Shown: positions 8,839-63,396 of the stretch, one piece after another
How the letters are laid out: every line of letters begins with the position of its first letter
Position numbering within the stretch: position 1 is the stretch's first letter
Source: Rhodoferax sp.
GTDB taxonomy: Bacteria; Pseudomonadota; Gammaproteobacteria; Burkholderiales; Burkholderiaceae_C
Direction: 5' to 3'
Assembly: GCA_031291305.1 (NCBI GenBank)
Contig: JARLJH010000036.1
Location: forward strand, 1 to 64,000
Length of the DNA: 64,000 bases
Notes under the pieces: generated by a model
Database searches by the model: none
Told to the model about the DNA's origin: nothing
The model's input: only the letters and a program-made list of their open reading frames with translations
Program-made: the position numbers and the translations under genes

Positions 8839-8967
8839 GACATTCGGCATCCGCACACCGTACCTGCCCGCATTGGGCTGAAGTGGGGCGCACCAAAGTC
8901 ACTGGTTTAGGCCTTCGCTTGTTGTCGTATGGCAACTGTGAAAACCTGGCGCAGCGGTTGTGGCCTG

Positions 8968-9040
8968 CCAACGAGGGTGATGCCGGGGGCCTCATACTGT
9001 CAAAGGCCCAGAAATCGGCCCCCGGCATCACCCTCATTGG
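8968..9040 (+). repeat. Conserved-loop stem-loop A
   Basis: The arms 8968-8991 and 9017-9040 pair over 24 bases with one mismatch (CCAACGAGGGTGATGCC on the left). The 25-base loop begins TCATAC and ends GAAATC, with a CTG/CAG pair inside. The same loop ends occur in four other hairpins of this window whose stems differ. There is no T-run after it, so it is not a standard terminator. Confidence 0.8.
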
Positions 9041-9225
9041 CGACAAGTGGCGCTGTGGGTTCGCCAGCCAAAAAATACAAAGCTCTCAGAAGCTACAAGT
9101 TAAAAAACAACTTTGGCACACCGTCAAAAACCCACAAGTGCAGGGGCTGTCGTACCTGACACGAGCGAAGCAAAGTGCCGTGACTCTCCCCGCCGTTGAG
9201 GCAGGGCTGAGCAGCGCAGCAGACT

Positions 9226-17248: not shown

Positions 17249-17336
17249 GTGACGCGCTCGCCCTGATGTTGCTCGCACCGACACTCTCTGGCGGTATGAC
17301 CTCTCGCGAACGCTTCACTTTGAAACCCGCAAGGCA

Positions 17337-17396
17337 GACCCTGTGCGCAGCTTCCTCATACTGGCGTACCAGAAATCGTCAGCCGCGCACAGGGTC
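17337..17396 (+). repeat. Conserved-loop stem-loop E
   Basis: The arms 17337-17355 and 378-396 of the same kilobase pair over 12 perfect bases (GACCCTGTGCGC) and then imperfectly to 16 of 19. The 22-base loop begins TCATAC, has an inner CTGG/CCAG pair and ends GAAATC. It faces stem-loop D. Confidence 0.75.
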
Positions 17397-17499
17397 CACC
17401 TCGCTGGCGCCTTGGGCACTGATGAATACCTGCAATCAAGCCACGCTTCGGCTGTCCTGCCCTTGGTCTTCAAAAACCATCCAATCGTCAACGAACGTC

Positions 17500-17575
17500 G
17501 CGCGATGGCCGGATGGGGTGGCCGCAGATTTCTGGTACCCCAGTATGAGGCGGACGCCCCATCCGGCCAGCGCGC
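17500..17575 (-). repeat. Conserved-loop stem-loop D (inverted)
   Basis: The arms 17500-17525 and 17550-17575 pair at 23 of 26 positions (core TGGCCGGATGGGG). Read on the minus strand, the loop begins TCATAC, holds CTGG/CCAG and ends GAAATC. Apart from one central base it is identical to the loop of stem-loop E, while the stem is unrelated. Confidence 0.8.
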
Positions 17576-17657
17576 AGCGCCGGACCAACGTATCTGCCAA
17601 CAACTCTTCGGCGCCTGAATTACTGCTTAGCATGCAAAAAAACAAAGCATCTGCCCC

Positions 17658-62922: not shown

Positions 62923-63085
62923 GACTCGCGCCGATCTGGTGCTACCAGGCTGACCCAAACGAGACAGGGTTCTGGCGGAGACAGGCGGACACCAGCACCA
63001 GCGGCCGCGATTGAACTCATGCTGTGGCGTGTCGGTTGTATTTTCAAAACCGAGGTCAGTGGAGGATATGCCAGCTTTGGTGATG

Positions 63086-63163
63086 GGCCACACCCGGCAA
63101 GGCGGGGGGCCTCATACGCGCTGCGCTTTGCGAAATCGGCCCCCCGCCTTGCCCGGTATGGCC
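63086..63163 (+). repeat. Conserved-loop stem-loop B
   Basis: The arms 63086-63111 and 63138-63163 pair at 24 of 26 positions (core GGCAAGGCGGGGGGCC). The 26-base loop begins TCATAC, contains CGC/GCG, and ends GAAATC. Confidence 0.82.
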
Positions 63164-63248
63164 TGAGGCGGTGTTGGTGCATGAGCCTGACAAAACCAGG
63201 TATCTGGGAAATCGGCAATTCAGGTGTCGGCGAACCCGAACTCTCGCC

Positions 63249-63328
63249 GCCGGGGTTGGGGCATGGGGGTGCGCCGATTTCGCAAAGCGAAGCGCGTATG
63301 AGGCGCACCCCCATGCCCCAACCCCGGC
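63249..63328 (-). repeat. Conserved-loop stem-loop C (inverted)
   Basis: The arms 63249-63275 and 63302-63328 pair perfectly over 27 bases. On the minus strand the 26-base loop begins TCATAC and ends GAAATC and differs from loop B at a single base, while the stem is unrelated to B. It faces B. Confidence 0.88.
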
Positions 63329-63396
63329 CACTCCAAACGTCAGAGATCAAAGTTCCCATTGAATCAACGCACGCAAAAAACCCCGAAAGATTGAAG

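Follow-up and report, generated by a model that had tools for sequence, protein, structure and literature searches.

Dispersed inverted hairpin pairs with a conserved loop and covarying stems in Rhodoferax and its relatives: a candidate family of REPIN-like foldback elements

REP, REPIN and BIME sequences are hairpin-forming repeats dispersed between genes. As described in the sections of PMC8266576 and PMC3116915 used here, inverted pairs of them spread as a unit, and only one folded strand is recognised in the system that they form with the transposase RAYT (TnpA-REP). Repeated palindromes that stand alone have been interpreted as defunct remnants (in the same section of PMC3116915), and by the criteria set out in part of PMC2817692, RAYTs with abundant REPs were reported from gammaproteobacteria only. 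The Beta-proteobacterial repeat element (BRE) is GC-rich, 75-91 bp long and mostly intergenic, with 4 copies in Rhodoferax ferrireducens and 29 in Polaromonas JS666. It occurs in tandem arrays and is common in Bordetella, and the relevant section of PMC3110155 describes no hairpin or inverted pairing. The available parts of PMC3733652 and PMC12306157 mention neither Polaromonas nor Rhodoferax, and that of PMC5217627 lists a Polaromonas motif different from the element analyzed here. A search of freely licensed papers found no description of this element.

Hairpins of the window and their relatives

We analyzed a 64,000-nucleotide stretch of Rhodoferax sp. DNA (the window; contig JARLJH010000036.1, positions 1 to 64,000). 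Five hairpins of one plan had been claimed in a preliminary description, and a pattern search found all of them. They are listed with the strand on which the fold is conserved, here called the working strand, and with the evidence for each.

62923-63396, no strand: intergenic stretch of about 473 bp around the H1/H2 pair (gene ends from our own gene caller)
63080-63331, no strand: dispersed paired unit (~69-74% identity to other loci of the genus)
63086-63163, - strand: hairpin H1, GCGC-loop subtype (DNA and RNA folds; covariance-model match 63094-63155)
63164-63248, no strand: spacer of 85 bases between H1 and H2 (sequence; ends set by the folds)
63249-63328, + strand: hairpin H2 (fold; model match 63258-63319)
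17249-17657, no strand: insertion of 409 bp holding the next two hairpins (comparison with relatives' loci)
17329-17404, - strand: subfamily A hairpin (RNA fold; model match 17338-17395)
17496-17579, + strand: subfamily B hairpin, its partner (RNA fold; model match 17509-17566)
8963-9044, - strand: single, unpaired hairpin of the TGTCAAAGGCCCA-loop subtype (RNA fold; model match 8974-9034)

The RNA fold of 17329-17404 has an energy of -58.1 kcal/mol on the - strand, compared with -41.2 on the + strand. For the pair at 63 kb, the reported spacing of 85 bases was confirmed from sequence and folds, and the two 26-base loops do start with TCATAC, end with GAAATC and differ by one base. Stem lengths of 26 and 27 bp had been given; H2 has 27 bp, but H1 has 25 bp, in segments of 9 and 16 bp with one mismatch between them. 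The pattern TCATAC-N6..30-GAAATC occurs 5 times in the window versus 0.03 expected, and none of 100 shuffles reached 5.

The stems had been called unrelated. They are not entirely so: genome-wide they fall into subfamilies with common basal and apical motifs around a variable middle (by eye). The spacers, judged in the same way, are not conserved between subfamilies. The inner-loop subtypes covary as proposed, in two rows only. Within the GATTT/TATGA internal loop, a tandem G·A, a T·T, a T-A and a second T·T pair are possible. A double change from T-A to G-C (TCAGAC/GACATC), present in two elements of the window's genome and in genome G005, supports a T-A pair inside this loop. Some individual copies have peculiarities of their own. 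The hairpin around position 1500 of locus L011 looks chimeric by eye: its left arm belongs to subfamily B, and its right arm resembles the outer one of subfamily A. In L174 and L175 (around 1501-1583), hairpins of different subtypes carry an insertion of ~20 bases at the identical place in the internal loop. L016 has long G and T runs ~100-200 bases from its hairpin; they lie close to the end of a contig and may be an artefact of assembly.

The window's genome (4.98 Mb in 69 contigs) contains 26 copies of the core CCTCATAC...GAAATCG and none of a reversed control pattern, and a covariance model yielded 30 matches at E<=0.1. Three of 27 rows (L009, L012 and L018 minus) have an ungapped stem score of <=6; the model recovers L009 and L018 minus and misses L012. 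The exact core was present in 26 of 60 genomes, all 26 from the window's genus. With the covariance model, 57 of the 299 genomes sampled from the window's family were found to carry the element, representing 39 of 141 genera. Note that this survey scored few candidates per genome, and the per-genome counts are lower bounds. In the order as a whole, 2 of 200 genomes had the element, both of the window's own family. Among at least 119 public-genome stretches, loop-pattern matches in unrelated species had no stems (best ungapped stem score <=7.5) and thus serve as an accidental control. Nine copies had stems with scores of 17 to 24 (Rhodoferax loci L032, L109 and L122; Polaromonas L092 and L107; a Comamonadaceae bin, L137; and a further bin, L114). 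Three stemless matches belong to the same bacterial group (Paracidovorax L059, Limnohabitans L133 and a Burkholderiales bin, L078). A blastn search with window positions 17320-17590 against 72,556 plasmid and 50,697 phage records yielded nothing at E<=1e-3, and the exact loop had no match in IMG/VR. The host range is probably one bacterial family, Comamonadaceae in the broad sense.

In the examined loci the copies form 77 clusters, comprising 31 inverted pairs and 46 single copies. Orientation is uniform in 31 of 31 pairs, with both working strands pointing outward and 37-130 bp between the padded hairpins. Nine of the 77 clusters lie inside ORFs of our gene caller. No clear preference for particular sites was apparent, a feature that the preliminary description had proposed to look for: 40 clusters lie between tandem, 18 between convergent and 7 between divergent genes, and the window itself has 36, 9 and 9 such pairs of genes, respectively. 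Note that gene positions for these context counts, and for the direction counts below, are from our own codon-usage gene caller and not from annotation.

Paired changes in the stems and the strand that folds

When 32 sequences were aligned on the strand first described, 164 cells had changed on both sides of a pair, compared with 50 expected. Rebuilding the alignment on the GATTTC strand (alignment A3) raised the fraction of paired cells from 89.3% to 93.6% (21 and 22 pairs counted), with 179 both-sides-changed cells versus 52 after shuffling. Alignments A1 and A3 omit four of the 36 elements (L009, L011, L012 and L018 minus). Covariation had first seemed restricted to Watson-Crick pairs, an effect of viewing the opposite strand.

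Stems also covary in place. Orthologous hairpins at the same gene junctions of genomes G139 and G242, with flanks mostly 84-91% identical, show 14 double changes in 270 pairs of 10 hairpins (null mean 4.0, maximum 11 in 20000). Twelve of the 14 lead from one Watson-Crick pair to another; 27 changes are one-sided. This count excludes L220 H2, which looks replaced, and L222 H1, which is out of register; with both included, there are 18 double changes in 324 pairs against a null of 5.1. The nearest G139 stem was a clear ortholog in 8 of 11 cases, with 2 ties and 1 stem closer to a paralogue. Hairpin 17329-17404 differs from its G380 ortholog by 4 double and 5 single changes, a comparison that is weaker on its own (335 of 20000 shuffles reach it). 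Selection on structure, one of the two explanations originally offered, is thus supported by paired changes both among paralogues and between orthologues at fixed sites.

Mismatches in the stems are strand-specific. On the GATTTC strand, 112 stems contain 146 G·T and 11 A·C mismatches (127 to 11 after collapsing shared mismatches, p=4e-26). G·A outnumbers C·T by 38 to 1 (31 to 1 collapsed) and G·G outnumbers C·C by 13 to 1. An earlier count of 110 stems on the strand first described gave 144 A·C and 11 G·T. Positions 0-2 adjoining the loop were left out of these counts, and stems with fewer than 17 (110-stem count) or 16 (112-stem and gene-direction counts) Watson-Crick positions of 24 were dropped. 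The bias points one way in all six groups that yielded elements; the seventh, G317, yielded none. The consensus fold reaches -40.3 kcal/mol on the GATTTC strand compared with -32.6 on the other. Thus, the informative strand is GATTTC...GTATGA, opposite to that of the preliminary description. The G·T bias indicates that the ability to fold is maintained on one strand, apparently as a requirement, and so suggests a protein that recognises this strand when folded. Strand-biased mutation could enlarge the G·T excess; deamination of this kind could be a source of G·T, but not of the transversions G·A and G·G. A tendency of single copies to follow replication direction was considered and dropped: it holds for 10 of 11 singles on G139 contig 1 (our own count), but is absent in the window's genome (7 of 17).

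The mismatch bias is independent of the direction of transcription. G·T versus A·C amounts to 42:2 in members that are sense to tandem genes and 49:2 in antisense members, with non-Watson-Crick rates of 0.109 and 0.094, respectively. This equality argues that the constraint is not exerted via the mRNA of flanking genes.

Insertion, spread and the nature of the folded molecule

The spreading unit measures about 212-250 bp. In the Polaromonas genome G123, a unit of 212-242 bp occupies at least 31 places (our own count from 50 match rows; 40 candidates scored, two at contig ends), with identity of up to 94% over 242 bp. At five G123 sites (L212, L213, L214, L216) a separate repeat with ATAGCTGCTCCCGCGGG abuts the pair, with small differences. 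A longer unit of ~375 bp was considered for several G123 loci and rejected, the extra part looking like a separate adjoining repeat. The stretch between two G123 units 3 kb apart was likewise considered as an autonomous element; it has only chromosomal-looking ORFs (by eye).

Empty sites were found at both paired loci of the window; the corresponding search for G123 comprised G123 alone. The locus of the H1/H2 pair has matches in 74 of 80 genomes of the genus. The loci returned for 29 other genomes were examined, and 18 of these genomes keep the flanking genes as neighbours. Seventeen of the 18 are without a model match, and in 15 of these less than 100 bp separate the genes; the eighteenth, G005, carries H1 alone, in diverged form. 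The insertion ends could not be fixed at this locus, where the relatives' junctions are too diverged. At 17249-17657, 21 of 22 relatives' loci examined have both flanking genes. These overlap by four bases in 11 of the 21 (ATGA in 10), and in 9 others they are 61-245 bp apart with no model match, some with other repeats. G380 has H1 by the model and part of H2, which is cut by N. The four-base overlap (orthologues L349-L370) is a hot spot at which different repeat families have been inserted in different species.

The preliminary description had allowed for a local and accidental similarity if homologous loci lacked the hairpins and no further copies existed. Most examined loci do lack them, as expected of insertions, yet many copies with the same conserved loop ends are present elsewhere in the genome and in relatives.

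On the best explanation, with a probability of about 0.55, the hairpins make up a family of small, mobile, REPIN-like foldback elements, each working as folded single-stranded DNA (ssDNA). The working strand would read stem-GATTTC-inner stem-GTATGA-stem. The working molecule would most likely be ssDNA bound by a protein that reads its apical part, with the short inner stem and the GATTT/TATGA internal loop as the putative target. The stem would only have to pair, so its middle could drift, passing through a G·T (in some cases G·A) mismatch before a compensating change restores the pair. The inverted pair spreads as a unit, inserted at gene junctions. Folding cannot tell DNA from RNA. Two candidates remain, an RNA that the element itself produces, or ssDNA as it becomes exposed during replication, repair or transfer. 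The latter is favoured by the lack of any common promoter region visible by eye and by the resemblance of the unit to REPINs.

The median fold does not differ between single and paired copies (p=0.61). Copies with a fold of <0.85 are commoner among singles (13 of 51 versus 5 of 66, p=0.01), suggesting that some decay is under way. If the hairpin were needed for movement only, old resident copies would be expected to decay. The equal median fold and the covariation between orthologues therefore call for a function at the resident site or for frequent replacement. A more specific version, in which folded ssDNA is selected at resident sites, a putative host protein reads the apical loop and the mover is not the Y1 transposase RAYT, is proposed tentatively, with the odds against it.

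It is possible, though rather doubtful, that the folded molecule is an RNA transcribed from the element as such (either a dispersed small RNA or a protein-binding site in RNA) and not part of flanking transcripts. The mismatch bias could then be read as G·U tolerance on one strand, the internal loop is conserved, and RNA folds on the working strand are strong, with z of -7.8 to -9.9 in four elements (-6.8 and -6.9 on the opposite strand of two elements). However, sense and antisense copies are equally constrained, and with spacers that differ between subfamilies no shared promoter is seen by eye. Rfam gave 0 matches above the gathering threshold in the window, and in six loci, searched also at E<=1, sub-threshold miRNA and C4 matches only. 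Moreover, the 13 G·G and 38 G·A mismatches are tolerated as well, and these are more stable mismatches in DNA.

It appears unlikely that the element is simply a REPIN belonging to the RAYT of this bacterial family, which would then serve two repeat families. The inverted hairpin pairs and empty sites are REPIN-like, and RAYT is present in 11 of 11 element-rich genomes, in 7 of them as the sole Y1 transposase. The co-occurrence with a TnpA-REP-like gene that had been suggested as a check is thus real, but not specific: RAYT is found in 280 of 299 family genomes and the element in 57. A dedicated partnership, which looked perfect at 11 of 11, fell with this control. No model match lies within 1.5 kb of 12 Y1 loci, and in all 11 loci inspected by eye the RAYT gene is flanked by CTGACCC-type repeats instead of the hairpin element. 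The near-universal presence of RAYT and the other repeat beside its gene argue that RAYT is not the specific partner, and the element-rich genomes yielded no cognate transposase. Of 112 elements, 30 have GTAG on the 5' side of the working strand (6.6 expected), but mostly in the Polaromonas lineage: one Polaromonas genome has it at 16 of 18 elements, the window's genome at 1 of 25. With GGAG at 4 (5.9 expected) and CGTC at 19 (12.4 expected), none of these REP/REPIN tags is constant among the 112 elements. RAYT loci L028, L236-L242, L246, L249 and L252 include several in which the gene lies upstream of a gltB-like gene (by eye), and in L352 the CTGACCC-like repeat stands as an inverted pair.

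Mutational upkeep of the stems by template switching, quasipalindrome correction or inverted target duplication at insertion is improbable. A stem-regenerating mechanism had been the other explanation originally offered, and the long, nearly perfect stems, the double changes at fixed sites and the one chimeric hairpin (L011) would fit it. Such upkeep predicts both strands alike, but the mismatches, at 146 to 11, are about 12- to 13-fold biased to G·T on one strand; that a single strand stays foldable is evidence against template switching from one arm to the other. A tandem G·A/A·G replaces two Watson-Crick pairs near the loop in 10 of 32 rows, and as it suits the GATTTC strand only, it also argues against arm copying. 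The nearest stem is orthologous in 8 of 11 cases, and no stem arm was seen at the relatives' ATGA junction (by eye). Least probable is a terminator, stability hairpin or attenuator in the mRNA of neighbouring genes: the hairpins are intergenic, very stable and often between convergent or tandem genes, but single copies between tandem genes are sense in 9 and antisense in 13 cases, fold quality and wobble bias are alike in both directions, and none of 27 copies of the window's genome has the T run of an intrinsic terminator, sought as TTTT on the working strand in the 20-45 bases downstream of the loop.

Comparison with known systems

Most copies of the element, single or paired, keep their fold, in contrast to the reading of single palindromes as defunct remnants in the section of PMC3116915 cited above. 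The mismatch bias tells the working strand and argues against neighbouring mRNAs as the reason for the fold. Comparing G·T with A·C counts in the stems, separately for each gene direction, is a simple general test of the working strand of hairpin repeats. A concrete target can also be named: a putative protein that would bind the GATTTC...GTATGA loop.

Compared by description only, and with the part of the BRE report used here, BRE resembles the present family in size, GC-richness, mostly intergenic position and Rhodoferax/Polaromonas hosts, and the two may overlap in part. They differ in that no tandem arrays occur here (in the 77 clusters, no copy has a neighbour on the same strand within 350 bp). 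Miniature inverted-repeat elements (MITEs) are short and non-coding with inverted-repeat ends, as is this element, which differs in having no assigned transposase or defined target duplication. Integron attC sites keep their structure while their sequence varies, with one strand active. The same holds here, except that the apical loop is conserved and not basal boxes, and no cassette array was seen. From REP/REPIN the element differs in its stems of ~25-30 bp with largely free sequence, its conserved loop of 22-26 bases, the lack of a constant GTAG or CGTC tag and of a RAYT beside the examined copies, and in that most single copies are not decayed. In how the element works, REP/REPIN is nevertheless the closest kind: here too, hairpin-forming palindromes are dispersed between genes, and the inverted pair is the spreading unit, as seen in 31 of 31 pairs and in the units of G123.
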